DNA from: Hyphomicrobiales bacterium
GTDB lineage: Bacteria > Pseudomonadota > Alphaproteobacteria > Rhizobiales > JACESI01
Length of the DNA stretch: 64,000 bases
Reading direction: 5' to 3'
Assembly: GCA_013911885.1 (NCBI GenBank)
Contig: JACESI010000002.1
Coordinates: 62,001-126,000 of the forward strand
Under the pieces are notes generated by a model. It was given only the letters and a program-made list of their open reading frames with translations. It was not told where the DNA came from and made no database searches. Below are positions 21,823 through 33,568 of this stretch, in pieces. Positions within the stretch are counted from its first letter, which is position 1, and each line of letters starts with the position of its first letter. The translations under genes and the position numbers were made by a program.

Positions 21823-22422
21823 TCAGGCAAACAGCCTGCGGATTTTCGGCAGGGCGAAACGGCGGTCCTCGTGGTAGTCGATGATGCTGGCAAAGCGACC
21901 GTCGGCGTGAAACAGGAACACACCAGCGGTGTGGTCCATTGTGTAGTCGCTGCCCTGCGGCACCTTTTCAAACCGGGCGCGGAAGCCTGCAACGGCGCGT
22001 TCAACCTCGGCCAGAGGGCCGGTCAGGCCGTTGATGCGGGGATCGAAGCTCGACAGGTAGTCGGCCAGAACTTGTTGCGTATCGCGCTCGGGATCGACCG
22101 AGATGAAAACGGTGTTCAGGCCATCGGCGTCGGGGCCAAGCTCTTCGAGCCAGCCCGAAATGTCGCTGAGCGTGGTCGGGCAGACATCGGGGCACCAGGT
22201 GAAGCCAAAGAAGGCCATCGTCGGGCGACCGATCCAGTCCGCCGGGCGCACGGCCTCACCGTGATGGCTGGTCAGAGCAAAATTCATTTCGCTGATGGGC
22301 AAAGGCAGCAGCGCCGCTGGAGACTGCACCCGGTTGCGGCTTTGCCACCAACCAAGGCCGAGCGTGAAGGCCAGTGCTGCGCTCGCGCCCGCAAGACCAA
22401 GGATCAGTTGGCGTCGTCGCAA
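21823..22422 (-). CDS. SCO1/SenC family protein
   Basis: MAFFGFTWCPDVCPTTLSDISGWLEELG...FISVDPERDT. Confidence 0.9.
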   Translation of the reverse strand: MRRRQLILGLAGASAALAFTLGLGWWQSRNRVQSPAALLPLPISEMNFALTSHHGEAVRPADWIGRPTMAFFGFTWCPDVCPTTLSDISGWLEELGPDADGLNTVFISVDPERDTQQVLADYLSSFDPRINGLTGPLAEVERAVAGFRARFEKVPQGSDYTMDHTAGVFLFHADGRFASIIDYHEDRRFALPKIRRLFA

Positions 22423-22874
22423 TCCGGCCCCTCCGCGCGCAGGGACAGAACCTCGACGTTGACGACGATCTCGCCCGCGTTCTGGAAGCTCAGCGTCATC
22501 GGGAAGCTGTCGCCTTCCTTCAGCGCCATCGTCAGACCCATGAGCATGCCGTGGTAGCCGCCGGGGGCCAGCGCGACACTCTGGCCCGCCGCAACAGGGA
22601 TCGACATGGCATGCGGCATCGAGGCAACGCCGTCGGTCACCACGGATTCGTGCAGCATCGGCATCCCAGCCGCAGGGGTGGCAATGCTGACAAGCGCATC
22701 ATCCGTGTCGCCGCTATTGGTGATCTCGACATAGAACACGCCCGGCCGCGCCGCGCCGATTGTCGCCTTGGACCAGGCGTGTTCGATGGTCAGGTCACCA
22801 AGCGTAAAGGTCTCGCAGGCCAGCAAGGGAGTCGCGAACAGGGCGATGACAGTGGACAGGATCAGGGGTTTCAT
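22404..22874 (-). CDS. PCu(A)C family copper chaperone
   Basis: LTIEHAWSKATIGAARPGVFYVEI...PMLHESV...LAPGGYHGMLMGL. Confidence 0.9.
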   Translation of the reverse strand: MKPLILSTVIALFATPLLACETFTLGDLTIEHAWSKATIGAARPGVFYVEITNSGDTDDALVSIATPAAGMPMLHESVVTDGVASMPHAMSIPVAAGQSVALAPGGYHGMLMGLTMALKEGDSFPMTLSFQNAGEIVVNVEVLSLRAEGPDCDDAN

Positions 22875-22879
22875 GGGGC

Positions 22880-23473
22880 TCACAATCTTGATTGAAGGTC
22901 GGTCAGGATGTCGGTGGCGGGTGTGCCGTAGGTGAACTGACGCAACCAGTCGCCTGTCGGTCCGATGAGGTAGAGTGCCGGGCTGTGCGACATGGTGTAG
23001 CCGTCTGGTGCGACGGCATCGTCCTCGCGCGCGTAGTAGATGTGGAAACTGTCTGCCGCAGCGCGGGTCTGCGCCTCGTCCCCGGCAAGCCCGATGATCG
23101 ACGGGTGGAACGCCGCTGTGAACTCGGCCAGTCCCAGCCTGCGGTCCCGTTCGGGGTCAATGGAGATGAACAGAGGCTGGACCTTGCCTGCGTCGTCGCC
23201 CAGATCGTCCATCACCTGCGCCACTTCGGCAAGCGTTGTCGGGCAAACGTCCGGGCAGTTGGTGAATCCGAAGAAGACCAGAAGATGCTTGCCCGCAAAC
23301 TCCGAGGGCATACGCATACGCCCCTCGGGATCCGGCAGCGTGAAGGTTGGCCGGAAGGCAGCTTGTGGGAGGGCTTCCGGCGCTCGGTTTGACTGAAGCA
23401 CCAGCAGCCCATAGGCCAGCGCGGCACACCCCGCCGCCGCCCAAAGGATTTTCTGTAGCCTTGTCAAACGCAT
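22880..23473 (-). CDS. SCO1/SenC family protein
   Basis: LVFFGFTNCPDVCPTTLAEVAQVMDDLG...FISIDPERDRR. Confidence 0.9.
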   Translation of the reverse strand: MRLTRLQKILWAAAGCAALAYGLLVLQSNRAPEALPQAAFRPTFTLPDPEGRMRMPSEFAGKHLLVFFGFTNCPDVCPTTLAEVAQVMDDLGDDAGKVQPLFISIDPERDRRLGLAEFTAAFHPSIIGLAGDEAQTRAAADSFHIYYAREDDAVAPDGYTMSHSPALYLIGPTGDWLRQFTYGTPATDILTDLQSRL

Positions 23474-23618: not shown

Positions 23619-24380
23619 TCACGAGAAACGGCGTCGCAGTGCGACGTTGAACGCCTCGATTGCAACGACCATGACAATGACCGCCAGCGTGACGCTCGCT
23701 GCCTTGTCGTACTGGAAAGAGCGCACATAGGTCTGGATGTAGAAGCCGATGCCACCGGCCCCGACGATGCCGAGGATCAGCGATTCCCGCAGGTTAAGTT
23801 CGAACCGGAAGATGGTGTCGCGGGCGATCACCGGCGCCATCTGCGGCCAGATCGCGTGGCGCAAGCGCGCGAGCGGCCCGGCGCCCGCGCTCTCCAGTGC
23901 GGCGATCGGCCCACGGGCGACCCCATCGATGGCCTCGGCATAGAATTTCGCCAGCATGCCCGTCGCATGGAAGGCCACCGCGATGATACCGGGCAGCGGA
24001 CCCAGACCCACCGCGCCTACCATCAGCATGGCGACGAGAATCAGGGGTATGGCGCGGATCAGTGCAAGAGTTGTCCGCACGGGGCGGTGGACGACGGGCG
24101 GCGCCATGGTTTCGGAGGCAAGGACGCCGAGTGGCCCCGACAGGAGTACAGCGCCGAGCGTTCCGAGGATCGCGATGCGCAGCGTCTCGGCGCTGCCCTT
24201 GAGGATCTCCTTCATCACACTCGGGTCCGGTGGAATCATCCGGTCTAGAAAATCCACGATGCGTGGTCCGGCTGAAAGGAGGCGAGAAAACTCCACGTCG
24301 GTAGTGGCCAGCGACCAGAGCACGGCCCCGGCGACCAGACCGCCCGCCGCGAAGCCGCCCCAACCCCGGCCTTCCATCAC
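23619..24380 (-). CDS. PhnE-like ABC transporter permease
   Basis: GSAETLRIAILGTLGAVLLSGPLGVLAS...FRFELNLRESLILGIVGAGGIGFYIQTYVRSFQYDKAASVTLAVIVMV. Confidence 0.88.
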   Translation of the reverse strand: MMEGRGWGGFAAGGLVAGAVLWSLATTDVEFSRLLSAGPRIVDFLDRMIPPDPSVMKEILKGSAETLRIAILGTLGAVLLSGPLGVLASETMAPPVVHRPVRTTLALIRAIPLILVAMLMVGAVGLGPLPGIIAVAFHATGMLAKFYAEAIDGVARGPIAALESAGAGPLARLRHAIWPQMAPVIARDTIFRFELNLRESLILGIVGAGGIGFYIQTYVRSFQYDKAASVTLAVIVMVVAIEAFNVALRRRFS

Positions 24381-25159
24381 AGCACCGCCTTCAGGCGGGG
24401 CTGAACGGCAACGGTCGCATCGTCATAGAGCCTTTCTGTCGTACTCTCGGTGAGTTCTGCCGTAGGCGCGTCGAAAACGATCCGCCCGTTGCGCATGCCC
24501 ACGATCCTTTGCGCGAAACGGCGTGCGAGGTCGGGCTGGTGAGAGGAAAAGACCGTCGTTGCACCGCGCCGCCGCGCGGCCTCGGTCAGCAGAGACAGGA
24601 TTTCGGCCGCGCGCACGGGATCAAGGTTACTCACCGGTTCGTCGGCAAGGATCAGACGTGGCTCCTGCGCGAGGCAGCGTGCGATGGCGACGCGCTGCCG
24701 CTGGCCGCCACTGAGACTGTCCACCCGTCGCTCAGCCAGGTCGGCAATGCCGCAATCAGTCAACGCCGCGTGCGCAACCGCAAGATCGTCTTTCGAGGGC
24801 CTCCCGAACAGGGCTCGCAATGGACTCATGCGGCCAAGCCTGCCATTCAGCACATTACGCAGAACGCTCGAGCGTTCGACCAGAGCGAAGTCCTGAAAGA
24901 TGAATCCTGTATCTGCCCGGTGCGCGCGCGGCGGCGCACGGTCCGGATCGAGCGCGTCGCCCAGGACCGAGACGCGGCCGCGCCAGCCCCTCAGGCGACC
25001 ATCGAGCAGCGTCAGCAGTGTCGTCTTGCCTGCACCCGAAGGTCCGATCAGCGCGAGGGCCTCGCCGGGCGGTATCGACAACGACACCTGATCCAGCGTC
25101 GGCAATCCCGATCCGTCATGCGAAAAGCATAGCTCGTCAATGCGCACGACCGAACTCAT
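24377..25159 (-). CDS. PhnC-like ABC transporter ATPase
   Basis: Walker A GPSGAGKTT, signature LSGGQRQRVAIAR, Walker B LILADEP. Confidence 0.9.
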   Translation of the reverse strand: MSSVVRIDELCFSHDGSGLPTLDQVSLSIPPGEALALIGPSGAGKTTLLTLLDGRLRGWRGRVSVLGDALDPDRAPPRAHRADTGFIFQDFALVERSSVLRNVLNGRLGRMSPLRALFGRPSKDDLAVAHAALTDCGIADLAERRVDSLSGGQRQRVAIARCLAQEPRLILADEPVSNLDPVRAAEILSLLTEAARRRGATTVFSSHQPDLARRFAQRIVGMRNGRIVFDAPTAELTESTTERLYDDATVAVQPRLKAVL

Positions 25160-26031
25160 GGCAACAGCCCATAGCGGCGGGCAAGTGCCCGAACACCATC
25201 GAAAGCGCCCGCATCGGCCAGGACATAGCCGTCAGGGCCGTAGAGGTGCCGCAACATGGCGCGATGTTCGGGCGCGTTCAGCCGCAGCATGGCGGTCACG
25301 AAGTTTTCCTGCACCTCGGCGTCCAGTCCGGGGCGGGCAATCACCAGGTGGCTGGGGATCGGCTCGCTCTCGGCGATCCAGGTGACCTGGGACTGTTGGT
25401 CCGGCGCGAGCAGGAGATCGGCATACTGGCTGGCGCCCGCGGCATCGACCAGGCCCTCGGCCATTGCCTGCATCGCCTGCTGATAGCCGCCCGCGAAGAA
25501 CACCCGGCCGAAGAAGGCTTCCGACTCTGCGGGTCCGGCGATCAGTCCCGCACGTTCGAATTCAGCCAGCGGGTAGAGATAGCCTGACTCCGAAATCGGA
25601 TCGGCAAAGGCGATATCGCGCCCGCGCAGATCATCCAGCGTGGTGATGCCACTGTCGCGTCGCACGAAGACCCGTCCGGTGTAGTTGGGTGCATCGCGAT
25701 AGACCTCGGACAAGAGCGGCACCGCACCGATCTGCGCCTCGGCCAGAACGAAGGGCAGCGCCCCCATGAAGGAGATGTCTGCATCGCCGTTGCGCAGCGC
25801 CTCGACGGCGGCTGCGTGATCAATGGTCACGAAACCTTCGACCGGCACGCTGATCTGCTGTGACAGCCAGCTGGTGATGGCCTCGATGTCGCCTAGAAGC
25901 TTTTCAGGGTTCTCCTGCGGAATGAAGGCCAACCGCAACGGGGCAGACTGCGCGCGAACCGGTGCCGCGAGGGCAGCGAGACTTGCGCCGGACAGGGCAA
26001 GCAGACGGCGGCGGGAGAGCATGGAGTTCAT
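25156..26031 (-). CDS. PhnD-like periplasmic substrate-binding protein
   Basis: Tat-like signal SRRRLLALSGASLAAL; LRLAFIPQENPEKLLGDIEAITSWLSQQISVPVEGFV; DISFMGALPFVLA. Confidence 0.88.
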   Translation of the reverse strand: MNSMLSRRRLLALSGASLAALAAPVRAQSAPLRLAFIPQENPEKLLGDIEAITSWLSQQISVPVEGFVTIDHAAAVEALRNGDADISFMGALPFVLAEAQIGAVPLLSEVYRDAPNYTGRVFVRRDSGITTLDDLRGRDIAFADPISESGYLYPLAEFERAGLIAGPAESEAFFGRVFFAGGYQQAMQAMAEGLVDAAGASQYADLLLAPDQQSQVTWIAESEPIPSHLVIARPGLDAEVQENFVTAMLRLNAPEHRAMLRHLYGPDGYVLADAGAFDGVRALARRYGLLP

Positions 26032-27911
26032 CAGAACGCCCTTTCTTCGATGGCTTGCGCCTCTGATTGAAATGCGGCCCAGCTTGCCTCTGCGGCGGCC
26101 CAATCGTCGGCGCGCACTGCTGCGCCAACGGCAGCCAGACGTTCGGCAAGGGAATAGATCTCGGGACGCGCGGCGAGATTCGCCATGGTGCCTGCATCCG
26201 CCGAGAGATCGGCGGCAACGGTGTCGGTCAACAGCAGGATATGCTCAGCGTCTCGGCGCGGCAGAAGCGCATCGAGGGTCGAGGCGAACGTGGTCAATTC
26301 CGCGAAGGCCAGCCGGAACGGCGTGTTCTCGGCATCAAAGACCTCATAAGGTTCATCCGCCGCGCCCACAGTTTCGAGGTAGGCGGTCAGGTCGGCGCGC
26401 TCGGGCTCGGTCAGGCCAAGGCTTCTGGTCGTGTCGAACCAGTCCACCACGGCGGCCAGCGTCGGCATCGAGCCGTCATGGAAATAGGGCGCGGTGTAGA
26501 CGGTCCCGAGCAGGGTCGGCGTGTCGAGTGCTCCGCCGCGCGACCCCTCATAGGCCGCAGTCACCGACCCGATGTCATGCGCTTGGCGATCCAGGAAATT
26601 CCCGTTTGGCACATGGCAGCTGGCGCAGGATTGACCGTCCAGCCCGTCAAAGGGCCGGTTGAAGATCGCCTCACCCCGCCATGCTGCCTCGGGCGCTGCA
26701 TCGGTCAGGCGGCCGTCGCCGGTCAGCATCGCGTTTGGCAGAAAGTCGAACTCGGTCATGTAGGCGACGATGGCGTCCAGCATGAAGGGTGTAGGCTCGG
26801 CACCGGCGAATTCGTTGACGATCACGTTGCGGGTGAAATCGCGAATGCTGGCAAACCGGCCATCACGGCCATAGGGGCCGGTAAACCGCAGCCCGCGCAG
26901 GCTGGGAATGTCGATCGGGTCGGCACGGCGGTCGTTGAACATCGGGTTGAAGAAGGTCCCGTCCACATCCACCGAGCCGGGGTTGTGGCTGGCACCGGGG
27001 ATGAAGAACCGCTGGTTGATGTCCGAACGGTTGTGGCAGGTCGAGCAGGCGATGCCAAGCTCGCGCGCCGGGCCACTGAAGATCTCGGGGCTGTCGAACA
27101 GCATGTCGCCATAGGCGATCAGCGGCAGGTCGGTCTCATCTATGCCTTGCTCTTCGAAACCCAGTACAAGCAGGGGCAACGGATCCTGATCGAAGATGTC
27201 AGAGCCCGGAGGCAGCGTCGCGGGAAGCGTCACCGCACGGCCGCTGAGGGCAATGGTTTCCGGCACGGCGGAGAGGGTTGTGCGCGGCGCAAAATCGGCG
27301 ACGCGGTAGTTGGCGGCGAGATAGTCGGAAATAACCACCCGCGCCGCCGTCATGGCTTCGTGGTCGGGTTCGGTCGCGCCAACACCCAGAACCCCGGTAG
27401 AGCCGGTGTCGCTGGACAGCTCCAGCCAGGCCCGTCCGAGCGCGCGGGCCGCTTCGGGGTCAGCGGCGGCGAGATGATCCTCGATCGCGCGATAAAGCTC
27501 GCGGGCCGTGCGTACCGTCTGCTGTGCTGCGGCGGGGCTCTCGGCCGCCAGCGCCGCGTCAAGCTCTTCGTCGATGCGGGCGGCGACAAGACGCGTCGCG
27601 GCCTCGAAAACCGCTTCCCGATCTTCGCGCGCGATGGCGGCCGTCAGCGCCTCGGTCGGCAGGGAGCTTTGGCCCGCGAGCCAATCGAGCGCACCTTGCG
27701 TGTATTCCGACCCGCGATAGGGCTCTTCCCAGGCGCGCTCCACCGCGTCCCAGGGAACTGGCGCGAGATTGCCGAGAAACAGGGTCAACCGGTAAGCGGC
27801 AGCCTCGGGCAGCCAGGGGGTCTCTTTGGCCGGGGTCGCGATCGCCGGCCCGGCGAGAAAGCCAATTGCCAGCGCGAAACCGCAAGCGAGAGTGGGAATC
27901 CTGATGTGCAC
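26031..27911 (-). CDS. Large diheme cytochrome c peroxidase/MauG-family protein with N-terminal extension
   Basis: Two heme motifs CSTCHNRSDINQRFF and CASCHVPNGNFL; TPTLLGTVYTAPYFHDGSMPTLAAVVDWFD. GTG at 27911 preferred (ggag 6 nt upstream); ORF could extend to TTG at 27926. Confidence 0.85.
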   Translation of the reverse strand: MHIRIPTLACGFALAIGFLAGPAIATPAKETPWLPEAAAYRLTLFLGNLAPVPWDAVERAWEEPYRGSEYTQGALDWLAGQSSLPTEALTAAIAREDREAVFEAATRLVAARIDEELDAALAAESPAAAQQTVRTARELYRAIEDHLAAADPEAARALGRAWLELSSDTGSTGVLGVGATEPDHEAMTAARVVISDYLAANYRVADFAPRTTLSAVPETIALSGRAVTLPATLPPGSDIFDQDPLPLLVLGFEEQGIDETDLPLIAYGDMLFDSPEIFSGPARELGIACSTCHNRSDINQRFFIPGASHNPGSVDVDGTFFNPMFNDRRADPIDIPSLRGLRFTGPYGRDGRFASIRDFTRNVIVNEFAGAEPTPFMLDAIVAYMTEFDFLPNAMLTGDGRLTDAAPEAAWRGEAIFNRPFDGLDGQSCASCHVPNGNFLDRQAHDIGSVTAAYEGSRGGALDTPTLLGTVYTAPYFHDGSMPTLAAVVDWFDTTRSLGLTEPERADLTAYLETVGAADEPYEVFDAENTPFRLAFAELTTFASTLDALLPRRDAEHILLLTDTVAADLSADAGTMANLAARPEIYSLAERLAAVGAAVRADDWAAAEASWAAFQSEAQAIEERAF

Positions 27912-27928
27912 ACGTGTCTCCGTCAATT

Positions 27929-27942
27929 TTAGCCTTGGCTAA
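27929..27942. promoter_or_regulatory. Perfect palindrome TTAGCC-tt-GGCTAA, candidate MntR/DtxR-family operator
   Basis: ttagccttggctaa lies between the diheme protein start (27911, minus) and the mntR-like start (28001, plus). Confidence 0.6.
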
Positions 27943-28000
27943 CTTATGCACCCCGAGCCAACATGTTGTCAATCGGGCAGCGATTTGGCATTGTCACCGC

Positions 28001-28459
28001 ATGACCGACCAGCTTTCACAGACACCCGACGATCTCGCACCAGGCACCCGCGCGCCCGAAGCCCAAGCCGACGGGTTCGCGACCGTGCGAGAAGCCCGGC
28101 GGAACGAAGTGGCCGAGGATTACGTCGAATTGATCGCCGACTTGATCCACGAACAAGGCGAGGCGCGCCCGGTGGACATTGCCACGCGGCTTGGGGTAAC
28201 GGCGCCGACCGTGAACAAGACGCTGAACCGTTTGGCGCGCGAAGGCCTGATCACCCGCGAGAAATACCGTTCGGTATTCCTGACGGTGGAAGGCCGCGCG
28301 CTGGCCAAGGAATGCCGGCGGCGGCACGAGATCGTGCTGCGCTTTCTCATCAGCCTGGGCCTTGACCCCGAGACTGCGGAACGCGACGCCGAGGGCATCG
28401 AGCATCACGTCAGCGAACGAACACTGGCGCTGTTCGCTGACTTCGCCAATCGGTCCTGA
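28001..28459 (+). CDS. MntR-like DtxR-family metal-dependent regulator
   Basis: VAEDYVELIADLIHEQGEARPVDIATRLGVTAPTVNKTLNRLAREGLITREKYRSVFLTVEGRALAKECRRRHEIVLRFLISLGLDPETAERDAEGIEHHVSE. Confidence 0.9.
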   Translation: MTDQLSQTPDDLAPGTRAPEAQADGFATVREARRNEVAEDYVELIADLIHEQGEARPVDIATRLGVTAPTVNKTLNRLAREGLITREKYRSVFLTVEGRALAKECRRRHEIVLRFLISLGLDPETAERDAEGIEHHVSERTLALFADFANRS

Positions 28460-28465
28460 TCGGCC

Positions 28466-29125
28466 TCAGCTATTCTCGACAGCGAACCGCACATCGGCGA
28501 TCAGGCTTTCTGCGCTGAAATTCTCTAGTCGCCTGCCGTTCAGGAAGAATGTCGGTGTCTGACGGATTCCGACGGCTTCGACATCGGCCATGTCCTGATT
28601 GAGGATGCCGGTTATCCCCGGAAACAGTCTGTCGGTTCCGGCCTGCACGACGTCCAGGCCAGCGTCCCCGGCGATTTCCCAGGCAACGTCCATTTGTGGT
28701 GAACCGTGAACAGCCCAGCCGGGTTGCTGTTCCAGCAGCGCATCCAGCACCGGCTCGAACTTGTCCTGCATCCGTGCGGCCTCGAGGATACGCACAGCCT
28801 CGTCCGAGCCTTCGTGGAACACAGTATAGCGCAGGACGACACGGACCTGGGTCGGGAACTGGCGCCGGATCTCTTGCACCACAGGGTGGTAGGCCCGGCA
28901 GGCCTCGCAGGAGGGGTCAAAGAACTCGACCAGTGTGACCGGCGCATCCACAGGACCGAAGCTCGGGGAATAGTCCCGAATGAGCAAATCGGCTTCAACA
29001 GCAGGTGCCGCGGCGGCTGCGGCTTCGGCCTCTGCTTTTCGGCGGCGGGTCAGGACGACGGCACCGCCGGCGAAGGCGGCAAGTGCAAGGGTCGATGCCC
29101 CGATCAAGAGAGTGCGGCGGTTCAT
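28466..29125 (-). CDS. DsbA-family thiol:disulfide oxidoreductase
   Basis: VTLVEFFDPSCEACRAYHPVVQEIRRQFP; exported. Confidence 0.88.
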   Translation of the reverse strand: MNRRTLLIGASTLALAAFAGGAVVLTRRRKAEAEAAAAAAPAVEADLLIRDYSPSFGPVDAPVTLVEFFDPSCEACRAYHPVVQEIRRQFPTQVRVVLRYTVFHEGSDEAVRILEAARMQDKFEPVLDALLEQQPGWAVHGSPQMDVAWEIAGDAGLDVVQAGTDRLFPGITGILNQDMADVEAVGIRQTPTFFLNGRRLENFSAESLIADVRFAVENS

Positions 29126-29559
29126 GCGCGGTTTCCTTTCGGCAATATGAGGCTGAAAAAGATCGCTGCAAAGGCGATCAATGAGAGATATGGGATCGGT
29201 AATCCAAGAATCACCTGGGCTTCGCCGGTGCAGGACGGGCCGTTCTCGGTGCAAGGAACGATGGGGGCGGGCAGGAGGCCGGCATAGAGCCCCGAATGCC
29301 ACGCCGCCAGCGCCAGCCCTGACAGGACCAGCGGCAAGGCGTAGGTGCGCGCCACGCCGTCTCCGCGCCAAAGCGACAAACCGAAAATCGGCACCAGCGG
29401 GAACATGGCAATGCGCTGGTACCAGCAGAGCGTGCAGGGCATTTGCCCCAGCACTTCGCCAATGAACAGCGCGCCAAGTGTCGACGTCAACGCGAACAGG
29501 AACGCGGCGGTGAGGAGCAGGTCGTCGCGCGAGAGGCTTTGCGTGTCAGTTTTGGTCAA
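29122..29559 (-). CDS. DsbB-like disulfide bond formation protein
   Basis: GQMPCTLCWYQRIAMFPL (CxxC); VPCTENGPSCTGEAQVILGLPIPYLSLIAF. Confidence 0.9.
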   Translation of the reverse strand: MTKTDTQSLSRDDLLLTAAFLFALTSTLGALFIGEVLGQMPCTLCWYQRIAMFPLVPIFGLSLWRGDGVARTYALPLVLSGLALAAWHSGLYAGLLPAPIVPCTENGPSCTGEAQVILGLPIPYLSLIAFAAIFFSLILPKGNRA

Positions 29560-30031
29560 GAACGGGCTCCTTGCAGCGTCGAAGGGGAAGCGAGGCCGCG
29601 AGGATCAGGACCGCACCCAAAGTGATTGCAATATCGGCAACGTTGAACGTGGGCCAGTGCCAGTCGCGCCAATAGAGATCAAGGAAATCGGTGACGGAAC
29701 CCTGCCGAAGGCGGTCGATGATGTTGCCAAACGCACCGCCCACAACCAGCGCAAAGCCTGCCCGCTCCAAGGGGTGTCGCGCTCGAAACGCCATGAGCGC
29801 GAAGACGAGAGCCAGTGCGCCCGTCATCGCCGCCATCAGGAGGGGCTTGCCCGCCATGACACCGCCCATCATGCCAAAGCTCGCGCCCTCGTTGAACCCA
29901 AGGGCAAGGTTGAAGCCTGGTAGGACCGGAACCGCGGTTCTCTCCGACAGCAGCGACAGCGCCGCGGCCTTGGTCAACTGGTCTGCCACCACTGCGGCAG
30001 CAATCAGCGAAATCAACATCACCCTTGTCAT
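29546..30031 (-). CDS. lspA: Lipoprotein signal peptidase (signal peptidase II)
   Basis: FNLALGFNEGASFGM; FALVVGGAFGNIIDRLRQGSVTDFLDLYWRDWHWPTFNVADIAITLGAVLIL. Confidence 0.93.
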   Translation of the reverse strand: MTRVMLISLIAAAVVADQLTKAAALSLLSERTAVPVLPGFNLALGFNEGASFGMMGGVMAGKPLLMAAMTGALALVFALMAFRARHPLERAGFALVVGGAFGNIIDRLRQGSVTDFLDLYWRDWHWPTFNVADIAITLGAVLILAASLPLRRCKEPVLDQN

Positions 30032-30651
30032 TGTGCAGCCTTGTTCTTGACGCCGATCCAGCGTGGGACCGAGGCGGCGTAGCGGTCATAGTCCGGTCCA
30101 TGGGCCGCGCGCAGGGCGGCCTCTTCCGACCGGATCTGCGTGTTGGCGGACCAGAGAAACAGGAGCGGCGCAAGAACTGTAGGGACTGCGGGAAGTGCCA
30201 TGGCGATGCCAGCCAGTAGCGCCGCATGACCGACAAAGGTCGGGTTGCGGCTGAAGCGGTATAGCCCGCCCGAGACCAGATCGCCAGTTTCGCCACCCAT
30301 CACGCCAACGCGCCAGGAGGAACCCATCGACATCTGCGCGGCAAAGGCCACCATCGCGCCAAGACCTGACACAAACACCCCGATCAGGCCGAGAAGGACG
30401 GCTTGCCCTTCAGTCCAAAGCGGATCGATCTTGTGCAGTGCGGGCACTGCGAGCCAGAGGAGCGGCCCGAAGAACGCCAGCGTAAATGCCAGGCGGAAAC
30501 CCATGGCGGCAAACCGGTCGCGCCCTTTGGCGCGAGACAGCAGCCAGACGCTGCGACCTGCGGCTTGCGCTGCCAGCGAGCTGCCCCAGAAGAACAGCAC
30601 CAGATACCCGGCCAAAAGGGCCAACGCGGCCCACCCATATGATGCGATCAT
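30028..30651 (-). CDS. Isoprenylcysteine carboxyl methyltransferase-like membrane protein
   Basis: GLYRFSRNPTFVGHAALLAGIAMALP; AALRAAHGPDYDRYAASVPRWI. Confidence 0.8.
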   Translation of the reverse strand: MIASYGWAALALLAGYLVLFFWGSSLAAQAAGRSVWLLSRAKGRDRFAAMGFRLAFTLAFFGPLLWLAVPALHKIDPLWTEGQAVLLGLIGVFVSGLGAMVAFAAQMSMGSSWRVGVMGGETGDLVSGGLYRFSRNPTFVGHAALLAGIAMALPAVPTVLAPLLFLWSANTQIRSEEAALRAAHGPDYDRYAASVPRWIGVKNKAAQ

Positions 30652-30652
30652 G

Positions 30653-31261
30653 TCACTGCTCTCGCTTGAAGGTGTTGGAGGTAGGGTCGCCGGACGGCTT
30701 TGGCCAGCCCAGTATGCGATGTGTCGAACGACGGTATTGCTCAAACGTGTCCCCGTGTGTCGCCGCCAGGGCGCGTTCCTCAAGCGGAATCGCCAGAACA
30801 TAGAGGATTGCCCAGGTCCCAAGTGCCGCCAGAACAGGCGGTTCCGGGATCAGCGCCGCCCAACCGGCAAGGCCAAGCCAGGTCGCCAGATAAATTGGAT
30901 TCCTGCTGAACCTGAACATGCCATCGACCTTCAGGCCTTTGTCTTCTCCGAACGCTTTAGCCCAACCCAGGCTGTAGGTCGCCCCGAAAGCAACGCCAAA
31001 GCCCACAACGGCCAAAACGCCGCCGATCAGTTCGCGCGGGCCGACGGAAGGGGGCAACCGCCCGGCCAGCGAGACTGCCGTAAGGACAACCAGCCCCCAG
31101 ACAAGGCCTCGGAACAAGACAATGAATGACATGTATTCAGCACTGTCGCGCCCTTTGGGGGGCCAGATCCCTTCATCCGCGCGCCAAAGGGCAAGTGCTG
31201 ATCTGGCAAGCAACGCACAGCCACATGCAAACGGTATCAATGCAAACCCAGCTGTCCACAT
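30653..31261 (-). CDS. Isoprenylcysteine carboxyl methyltransferase-like membrane protein (second)
   Basis: GMFRFSRNPIYLATWLGLAGWAALIP; HGDTFEQYRRSTHRILGWP. Confidence 0.8.
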   Translation of the reverse strand: MWTAGFALIPFACGCALLARSALALWRADEGIWPPKGRDSAEYMSFIVLFRGLVWGLVVLTAVSLAGRLPPSVGPRELIGGVLAVVGFGVAFGATYSLGWAKAFGEDKGLKVDGMFRFSRNPIYLATWLGLAGWAALIPEPPVLAALGTWAILYVLAIPLEERALAATHGDTFEQYRRSTHRILGWPKPSGDPTSNTFKREQ

Positions 31262-31264
31262 ATC

Positions 31265-33517
31265 CTATCCTTGCCGTTCCGGGTTGAACCGCAACAGGCG
31301 CAGCGCGTTCAGCGTTACCAGAACGGTCGCGCCTGTATCGGCCAGAATCGCGATCCACAGGCCGGTCAGTCCCAGAACCGAGGTTACAAGGAATACGACC
31401 TTGAGCCCGAGTGCGATGGTCACGTTCTGGCGGATATTGGCCATCGCGGCGCGGGACAAACGGATCGTGGCGGGAATGTCGGTCACCCGGTCGCGCAGGA
31501 TCGCCGCATCGGCGGTTTCCAGCGCCACATCGGTGCCCGATCCCATCGCCACGCCGACCGATGCCTGCTTCAGCGCGGGCGCGTCGTTGATGCCGTCGCC
31601 GATCATCATCACGCCGTCCTTGCTGCCTATCTCGCGGATATAGGCGAGCTTGTCCTCGGGCAGCATGTCGGCCTCGAACTGCAGCCCGAGGCTTCCGGCA
31701 ATCGCGGCGGCTGTGCGCGGGTTGTCCCCGGTCAGGATCACCGATGTCACCCCCATGGCGGTCAGCTGTCGTACGGCATCCTTGGCATCCGGGCGGGGCT
31801 CGTCCCGCATGGCAATCAGACCGAGCGGGGTCTTCTCGCGGAACACGGCAACGGCGGTTTTGCCGTCCTCTTCGAAGATCGTGGCCTGCCGAAGGCCAAG
31901 GCCATCGAGCCCGCCATGCTCCATCGCGTAACGGGGCGAGGACACATAGGCCGCAGCGCCGCCCACGGTTGCAACAACGCCCTTGCCCATCAGTGCCGTC
32001 GCGTCTTGCGACGGCAGCGCGGAAACGCCCGCGTCCTGGGCCTTGTTGAGGATCGCAATCGCCAGCGGGTGGCTCGACCCTGTTTCGACGCCCGCTGCGA
32101 CGGCAAGAAGCTCGGCTTCGGTGGTCGCCCCGAACGGCACAACATCCGTCACCTGCGGGCGGCCATGGGTCAGCGTTCCGGTCTTGTCGAAGGTCACGAA
32201 CCCGACCCTCGCGGCCGCCTCGATGACCGCACCACCCTTCATCAGCAGTCCGCGGCGCGCGCCGGTGGAAAGCGCTGAAGCGATGGAAGCTGGCACCGAG
32301 ATGACCAGCGCACAGGGGCACCCGATCAGCAGCAGCGCAAGGCCGCGATAGACCCAGGTGTCCCACGGCTGACCGAAGACAATGGGAGGCACCACGACGA
32401 CCAGAGCCGCGACGGCCACGATGGCTGGCATGTACCAGCGGCTGAACCGGTCGATGAAACGTTCGGTCGGCGCGCGGGCTTCCTCGGCCTCTTCCACCAG
32501 CCGGATGATGCGGGCGATGGTGTTGTCTTCAGGGCCTTTGGTGACTTTCACCCGCAGCGCGGCTTCGGTGTTGATCGCCCCGGCAAAAACCGCATCCCCC
32601 GGTCCTCGCGTCTTGGGTACGCTTTCGCCAGTGACCGGGCTTTCGTCCACGCCCGAGGTGCCCTCGATGATCTCGCCATCCGCCGGAATGCGGTCGCCGG
32701 GGCGCACCAATACGGTCTGGCCAATGGTCAGGCTGGCGGCGGGAACCTCGCGCGTTATGCCGTTCATTTCCAGCATTGCGGTCTTGGGCACCAGATTGGC
32801 AAGGGCGCGGATGCCGTCGCGCGCCTTGCCTGCCGCCACGCCTTCCAACACCTCACCCACGGCGAAAAGGAAAACCACTAGAGCCGCTTCTTCGGCGGCA
32901 TCGATGAACAGCGCACCAACCGCGGCGATGGTCATCAGGCTTTCTATGGTAAAGGGTTGCCCCAACCGCAGCGCCGCGAAAGCGCGCCGGGCCACAGGGG
33001 TCACCCCAATCAGGCAGGCCGCGACAAAAGCCCATTTGCCGATTTCGGGCGCCAGGTATTCTACGACCCAGGCCGCGCCCAGAAGTAGGGCGGTGAAAAT
33101 CACCAGCTTGCCCTTGGCCGTCTGAAACCAGCGCTTGCCGCGGTCGGCGGGGTCGTCATGCACATGGCCAGGGCTGCCATGGCGCGCTTCTTCACCCCGT
33201 GCGGTCGCGTCAGAGCCATGGTCATCGTGGTCGTGCCGATCCTGCGCGGCACTTTCCCCTGGCAGAACACCCCCCCTCTTTGCCGATGCTGCCCGCGGCG
33301 CAATCCCGTAGCCGAGGGCGCGCACTGTTTTTTCCACTTTGTCACGCCCCGACTGTGCCTCATCCAGCGTTAACCGCAGTCGTTCCGACATGATGGTGAC
33401 CTCGACGCCGCTGACACCGGGAATCCGCGCGACCGCATCCTTGATTTTCGTCGCGCAAGAGCCGCAATCCATGCCTGACACGGTCCAGTCGCAGGCGGTT
33501 TCGGTTGCTGTTTTCAT
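31265..33517 (-). CDS. P1B-type heavy-metal ATPase (Zn/Cd/Pb; ZntA/CadA/PbrA-like)
   Basis: N-terminal SGMDCGSCATKIKDA HMA motif; GCPCALVISVP; FDKTGTLTHG; MIGDGINDAPAL; His/Asp-rich HDHDDHGSD linker. Start ambiguous (33517/33520). Confidence 0.93.
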   Translation of the reverse strand: MKTATETACDWTVSGMDCGSCATKIKDAVARIPGVSGVEVTIMSERLRLTLDEAQSGRDKVEKTVRALGYGIAPRAASAKRGGVLPGESAAQDRHDHDDHGSDATARGEEARHGSPGHVHDDPADRGKRWFQTAKGKLVIFTALLLGAAWVVEYLAPEIGKWAFVAACLIGVTPVARRAFAALRLGQPFTIESLMTIAAVGALFIDAAEEAALVVFLFAVGEVLEGVAAGKARDGIRALANLVPKTAMLEMNGITREVPAASLTIGQTVLVRPGDRIPADGEIIEGTSGVDESPVTGESVPKTRGPGDAVFAGAINTEAALRVKVTKGPEDNTIARIIRLVEEAEEARAPTERFIDRFSRWYMPAIVAVAALVVVVPPIVFGQPWDTWVYRGLALLLIGCPCALVISVPASIASALSTGARRGLLMKGGAVIEAAARVGFVTFDKTGTLTHGRPQVTDVVPFGATTEAELLAVAAGVETGSSHPLAIAILNKAQDAGVSALPSQDATALMGKGVVATVGGAAAYVSSPRYAMEHGGLDGLGLRQATIFEEDGKTAVAVFREKTPLGLIAMRDEPRPDAKDAVRQLTAMGVTSVILTGDNPRTAAAIAGSLGLQFEADMLPEDKLAYIREIGSKDGVMMIGDGINDAPALKQASVGVAMGSGTDVALETADAAILRDRVTDIPATIRLSRAAMANIRQNVTIALGLKVVFLVTSVLGLTGLWIAILADTGATVLVTLNALRLLRFNPERQG

Positions 33518-33568
33518 CATGATCTTTCCCTCGGCCCGCAAGCGGACAGTTGCCTTCATCGAATCAGG

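Follow-up and report, generated by a model that had tools for sequence, protein, structure and literature searches.

Five genes at positions 23619-28459 of the window (the whole 64,000-nucleotide stretch of DNA analyzed here) probably make up a self-contained, horizontally spread, high-affinity importer of Mn(II) or, less likely, of Fe. On the plus strand, mntR (28001-28459) encodes a 152-aa Mn-type repressor of the DtxR family. Divergent from it, a minus-strand operon extends from 27911 down to 23619 and comprises a gene for a 626-aa diheme c-type cytochrome (26031-27911; signal peptide, two CXXCH motifs, PF03150), phnD for a PhnD-family substrate-binding protein with an altered pocket and a twin-arginine signal (25156-26031; PF12974, 188 bits), and phnC (24377-25159; PF00005) and phnE (23619-24380) for the PhnC-family ATPase and PhnE-family permease of an ABC importer. 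Four-nucleotide overlaps join phnD to phnC (ATGA-type) and phnC to phnE, and the diheme gene and phnD overlap in TGATG; because the genes overlap by so few nucleotides, the four are probably translationally coupled. An earlier sequence-only reading had described just such a coupled operon, with a diheme GTG start at 27911, facing mntR, and all five genes proved real and placed as it claimed; the GTG start also accords with relatives. The same reading put the mntR start at GTG 27914, which is probably too early: the longer frame would read through the putative operator and place it inside the gene, leaving ATG 28001 as the most likely start.

We propose that metal-loaded MntR would bind the palindrome TTAGCC-NN-GGCTAA on the operon promoter and block transcription, whereas under metal scarcity MntR would release the promoter and the diheme-phnD-phnC-phnE operon would be expressed. 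The PhnD relative would then capture the metal through His72, Glu148 and His228, together with Tyr183 and Tyr117, in the cleft where its relatives hold phosphorus oxyanions, and hand it over to the pump formed by PhnE and PhnC. The diheme protein would work in the periplasm beside the binding protein, where it may shift the metal's redox state ahead of capture or else remove peroxide. Support for Mn as the substrate comes from the conservation of the neighborhood, of the promoter/operator geometry, of the six Mn ligands of MntR and of the PhnD pocket.

Distribution and genomic surroundings

Of 298 sampled genomes of the host's order, just 4 encode the diheme protein, that of the host itself (2.75 Mb) among them, and none of three genomes from the same genus does. 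Plasmid records, together with a scan that took a single genome from each species, yielded more than 80 further loci. In 76 of the 78 alphaproteobacterial loci of 12 kb or more (long loci), mntR, phnD, phnC and phnE each stand beside the diheme gene, and the order mntR / diheme-phnD-phnC-phnE is likewise kept in 76/78. Since the companions are present in so many long loci, their grouping is more than chance, and this strong synteny bears out the conserved neighborhood proposed in the sequence-only reading. The five-gene unit occurs across marine alphaproteobacteria, and many of its loci are plasmid-borne, on conjugative or mobilizable replicons from Roseobacteraceae, Roseibium/Labrenzia and Martelella. 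On D. shibae plasmid pDSHI03 (locus L016, 7388-8219), phnDCE is gone, and alongside mntR and the operator only a diheme stub with about 64 matching residues is kept; this natural deletion may have left mntR without its target.

The operon lies within a metal-resistance island (window 9640-34050) that also holds a merR-like gene (9640), a mercuric reductase gene (11072; TIGR02053, over cut-off), a multicopper oxidase gene (13080), a DUF411 gene, a Sco/PCuAC/Sco cluster (21823-23473), a Zn/Cd/Pb-type P-ATPase gene (31265) and a CadR/CueR-like regulator gene (33550). Genes for DsbA-like and DsbB-like proteins, lspA, a methyltransferase and the P-ATPase adjoin mntR (28466-33559), and their order recurs on a Martelella plasmid (L010) with 61-79% identity where compared.

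The unit could therefore be read as a heavy-metal handling module of the resistance island, concerned with Cu, Zn or another metal, for example in metal delivery for oxidase assembly or in scavenging. Sco, PCuAC, DUF411, Zn/Cd/Pb-type P-ATPase, MerA and multicopper oxidase genes do occur in the window and around most loci: a P-type ATPase related to the window's heavy-metal genes is near 58 of the 78 long loci, and DUF411, Sco and PCuAC genes are near 51/78, 36/78 and 31/78, respectively. With Cu/Zn/Cd/Hg resistance genes as its usual surroundings, the unit may serve a metal other than Mn. However, ten long loci are without any of these heavy-metal genes by tblastn, and since the full unit is found in eight of the ten, the five genes, judged by these loci, move as an independent unit. 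The mapped pocket positions of the binding protein contain neither Met nor Cys, and the regulator is MntR rather than a MerR- or CopY-type protein, making a heavy-metal role improbable. Copper uptake, which the copper chaperones had raised as a candidate, was set back by the several loci without them and by the control through MntR.

MntR, its putative operator and substitute regulators

The window's MntR exceeds the curated cut-off of the NCBIfam MntR equivalog (NF008273/PRK11050; 205.6 versus 153 bits), and its closest PDB relative is E. coli MntR (2h09). The six residues that ligate metal in B. subtilis MntR (D8, E11, H77, E99, E102 and H103) are all kept in 87/87 sequences, the window's included, and this protein is the only DtxR-type protein of the host genome. 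The putative operator in the window, TTAGCC-TT-GGCTAA (27929-27942), matches the derived consensus at 12/12 positions and covers the -10/start region of the operon promoter, whose -35 element TTGACA lies at 27967-27972 on the minus strand. Across 84 intergenic regions, 33 of them distinct below 85% similarity, the palindrome TTAGCC-NN-GGCTAA is present at 10 or more of its 12 positions in 83 loci; TTGACA is matched at 6/6 positions in 81 and starts exactly 30 nt upstream of the palindrome in 80. Shuffled intergenic regions, which preserved base composition only, reached 10/12 in 0.3% of cases and 11/12 never. The host genome contains a single perfect operator, at the window locus, and the looser pattern TTAGCN4GCTAA occurs in just two places genome-wide, one of them the window locus. 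The other (C12:174078) lies between purD-like and ubiA-like genes, lacks the promoter arrangement and was judged a chance match.

With the operator conserved, no other DtxR-type protein in the host and all six Mn ligands kept, MntR most likely represses the diheme-phnDCE operon under Mn sufficiency, and it possibly represses itself as well. The metal-responsive control suggested by the sequence-only reading gains from this operator, from the Mn-type ligand set and from a Fur/Mur-type replacement in one relative. At that locus (L100), mntR is missing and the gene in the divergent position specifies a member of the Fur family, which scores 125 bits to PF01475 but does not reach the Fur equivalog cut-offs; the promoter contains the palindrome TTGCGAATTATTCGCAA. 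Two further loci (L101 and L102) have no adjacent regulator; upstream of their diheme genes, shortly before TTGACA, a conserved TTAGAA-N3-TTCaAA resembles the iron control element (ICE). Given a Fur-type regulator in the one case and an ICE-like motif in the others, metal-responsive control seems to be kept by different means across loci, with Mn favored. The ICE-like motif itself points to iron. The L100 regulator supports Mn: it shares 57% identity with the Fur-family protein encoded divergently from the SitA-like gene of the host.

That gene belongs to a SitABCD-like importer, and its presence weakens the Mn reading, since the host already owns such a system. The SitA-like protein has its highest scores against Mn/Fe binding proteins, EfaA among them, but exceeds none of their cut-offs. 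The host's PF01297 proteins are encoded on contig C2; the window's binding protein falls in PF12974 and so is not of the ZnuA/TroA type. In the host genome, the SitABCD-like genes share one cluster with znuA-type genes (L139, 3317-10756), which also includes two Fur-family regulator genes.

A rebuilt pocket in a PhnD-family protein

By family membership the importer resembles phosphonate transporters, though only PhnE surpasses its equivalog cut-off (TIGR01097, 241.1 versus 216.7 bits); PhnC (TIGR02315, 234.2 versus 266.1 bits) and PhnD (TIGR03431, 146.8 versus 261.1 bits) both fall short. The ligand positions of Te_PtxB, including the STS-H motif and Tyr55 of the phosphonate/phosphite-binding pocket, have been described (PMC5700983), and the window's PhnD aligns without gaps around them. 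Three are kept (S130 as S147, S132 as S149 and Y100 as Y117), and five are changed: Y55 to H72, T131 to E148, H160 to Y183, Y208 to H228 and D22 to Q39. In place of STS-H and Tyr55 the protein thus carries SES, Y183 and H72. The altered residues (H72, E148, Y183, H228 and Q39) are invariant in 29 members, nearly all of which also have the twin-arginine signal. A comparison set of 32 PhnD-family proteins from outside this group comprised three PDB entries and others mostly sampled across the phylum: 31 have Tyr at position 72, 29 have STS and 31 have the His, and the Glu and both new His residues of the altered pocket are absent from all of them. Profile scores separate the groups by a wide gap, with members at 560 bits or more and the next PhnD at 141 bits. 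A structural model (mean pLDDT 65) confirms the PhnD/PtxB fold, a type II binding-protein fold, but its pocket segments score below 50 and are too weak for pocket geometry; a transferrin is among its weak fold matches.

Judged by its residues, the binding protein is not a phosphonate binder. Loss of the anion site, together with the gain of two His and one Glu in one cleft, suggests that the ligand is a metal cation, and such N/O-type ligands would suit Mn or Fe better than Cu. Alternatively, the unit may import phosphonate, phosphite or another oxyanion and stand beside MntR by coincidence, consistent with its PhnD/PhnC/PhnE family membership, with closest PDB relatives that bind phosphite or arsenate, and with the two pocket serines and Tyr117 that are kept. 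Yet the STS Thr is replaced by Glu, which puts a negative charge at the anion's place, the STS-H His has become Tyr and the cap Tyr has become His; the operator and MntR are conserved; and the host has a phosphonate system elsewhere with its own PhnD. That system, on contig C15, includes phnJ and, about 3.4 kb from it, a canonical phnD whose product retains an intact STS-H (L002), an arrangement that further supports Mn for the window's unit. An oxyanion substrate is accordingly quite improbable. The sequence-only reading had proposed import of a metal or an oxyanion: the metal branch has been strengthened, as has its suggestion that a PhnD relative could carry a ligand other than phosphonate, and the oxyanion branch is now unlikely because the pocket is rebuilt. 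It was also correct that the window holds no phosphonate-metabolism genes. Its contrary case, phn genes closest to characterized phosphonate or phosphite transporters and without synteny, is not what was found; synteny is strong and the pocket altered.

The diheme protein and kinship with known systems

The diheme protein combines a signal peptide, a helical N-domain (about residues 30-220), a MauG/CCP-like core and a helical C-tail. Its heme motifs are CSTCH (289-293) and CASCH (429-433), and the CXXCH cysteines and histidines are invariant in 34 diheme sequences. It exceeds the CCP_MauG cut-off (PF03150, 38.3 versus 25.6 bits) and falls far below every named subfamily (MbnH 40.7 versus 362.85 bits; MauG 33.9 versus 443.85 bits). 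The structural model (mean pLDDT 63, heme core below 50) was not used for geometry. Matches to the N-domain fold were weak four-helix bundles (PsbQ, cytochrome c'; E 0.4 or worse), with no imelysin among the matches listed. An EfeO/imelysin identity for this domain, suggested by the EfeO gene beside distant homologues, was not confirmed: the long diheme proteins give no M75 match. Those distant homologues, which lack the N-domain, follow an EfeO/M75 gene in genome G285 and on a Bradyrhizobium plasmid. Pairs in which an EfeO/M75-like gene stands immediately before one for a diheme peroxidase-like protein, with no transporter, occur at L015 (7168-9326), L007 and L103 (8455-10628); a phosphatase-type gene is nearby, and the pair is uncharacterized.

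Such neighbors hint at a link between the diheme family and metal handling, and a role in changing the metal's redox state or in removing peroxide, as the sequence-only reading had also proposed, is a guess. Were peroxide removal the main purpose, the unit would serve oxidative stress, with the diheme peroxidase as its chief product when Mn is short and the ABC part importing a helper ligand. Mn is the cofactor of Mn-SOD and Mn-catalase, and the diheme gene stands first in the operon and is as conserved in occurrence as the transporter. Against this, the CCP_MauG score is just 38 bits, and in the first heme domain, which HMMER did not align to the known enzymes, a comparison by eye only suggests that the FWDGR inter-heme Trp motif may be replaced by YGRDGR (within PYGRDGRF). 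The metal-type pocket would also be left unexplained, and we consider a stress unit very improbable.

Iron import deserves more weight but is still unlikely. In composition, the window's PhnD pocket is similar to the FbpA/transferrin-type ferric site: it offers two His, a Glu and a Tyr, and its Ser hydroxyls could hold a partner anion. EfeB in EfeUOB has been proposed to oxidize Fe(II) before capture, and the diheme protein could do the same here, with MntR merely coupling the system to Mn status. The type II fold with its weak transferrin match, the ICE-like motif in the two loci without a regulator and the EfeO/M75 genes directly upstream of diheme homologues are consistent with iron; however, more than 80 loci are under MntR with a Mn-type ligand set, and the EfeO neighbors come without phnDCE. 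Returning to Mn, the most specific version of the proposal holds that a PhnD-family protein turned from binding oxyanions to binding a transition metal (STS-H to His/Glu/His/Tyr) within an MntR-controlled Mn importer whose diheme protein acts on metal redox before capture; this version is tentative and rather doubtful.

In ancestry the unit stands nearest to PhnCDE, and in its manner of operation to MntR-controlled Mn importers, without belonging fully to either. It shares the three-protein ABC architecture, protein families and type II fold of the PhnCDE/PtxABC/HtxBCDE importers (TIGR01097/01098/02315, PF12974), from which it differs in the subthreshold PhnC and PhnD, the replaced STS-H, the MntR operator, the coupled diheme gene and the lack of an adjoining C-P lyase or phosphite dehydrogenase. 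With SitABCD/MntABC and MntH it has in common a Mn-type MntR, a promoter operator and proposed metal import, but its binding protein belongs to the PhnD family instead of PF01297 (ZnuA/TroA-type), and it has an additional diheme cytochrome; to our knowledge, no Mn uptake system described so far has a diheme partner. EfeUOB (EfeU permease, EfeO and the heme peroxidase EfeB) likewise pairs a heme protein with import in a metal-responsive operon, and distant homologues of the diheme protein adjoin an EfeO/M75 gene, yet the unit has no EfeU/FTR1 permease gene beside it, no DyP-type EfeB and no M75 match in its long diheme proteins. The diheme protein shares two CXXCH motifs, a PTL-x5-APYFHDG motif and the PF03150 match with the MauG/bCCP/MbnH superfamily, and differs in its 626-aa length with extra helical N- and C-domains. 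AioX and ArrX are also PhnD-family proteins recruited for a non-phosphonate ligand, but they bind arsenite or arsenate, whereas this unit has an ABC transporter and a pocket with a Glu and two His. No published description of the operon was found in the literature searched, coverage of which was incomplete.

If the proposal is correct, a group of marine alphaproteobacterial systems now annotated as "phosphonate transporters" would be metal importers, and automatic annotation would misread both the phosphorus and the manganese nutrition of these bacteria. A few residue exchanges would suffice to carry a binding-protein family from anions to metal cations. A reason would also emerge for finding a Mn importer on metal-resistance plasmids: it could replenish Mn under interference from Cu, Zn or Cd.
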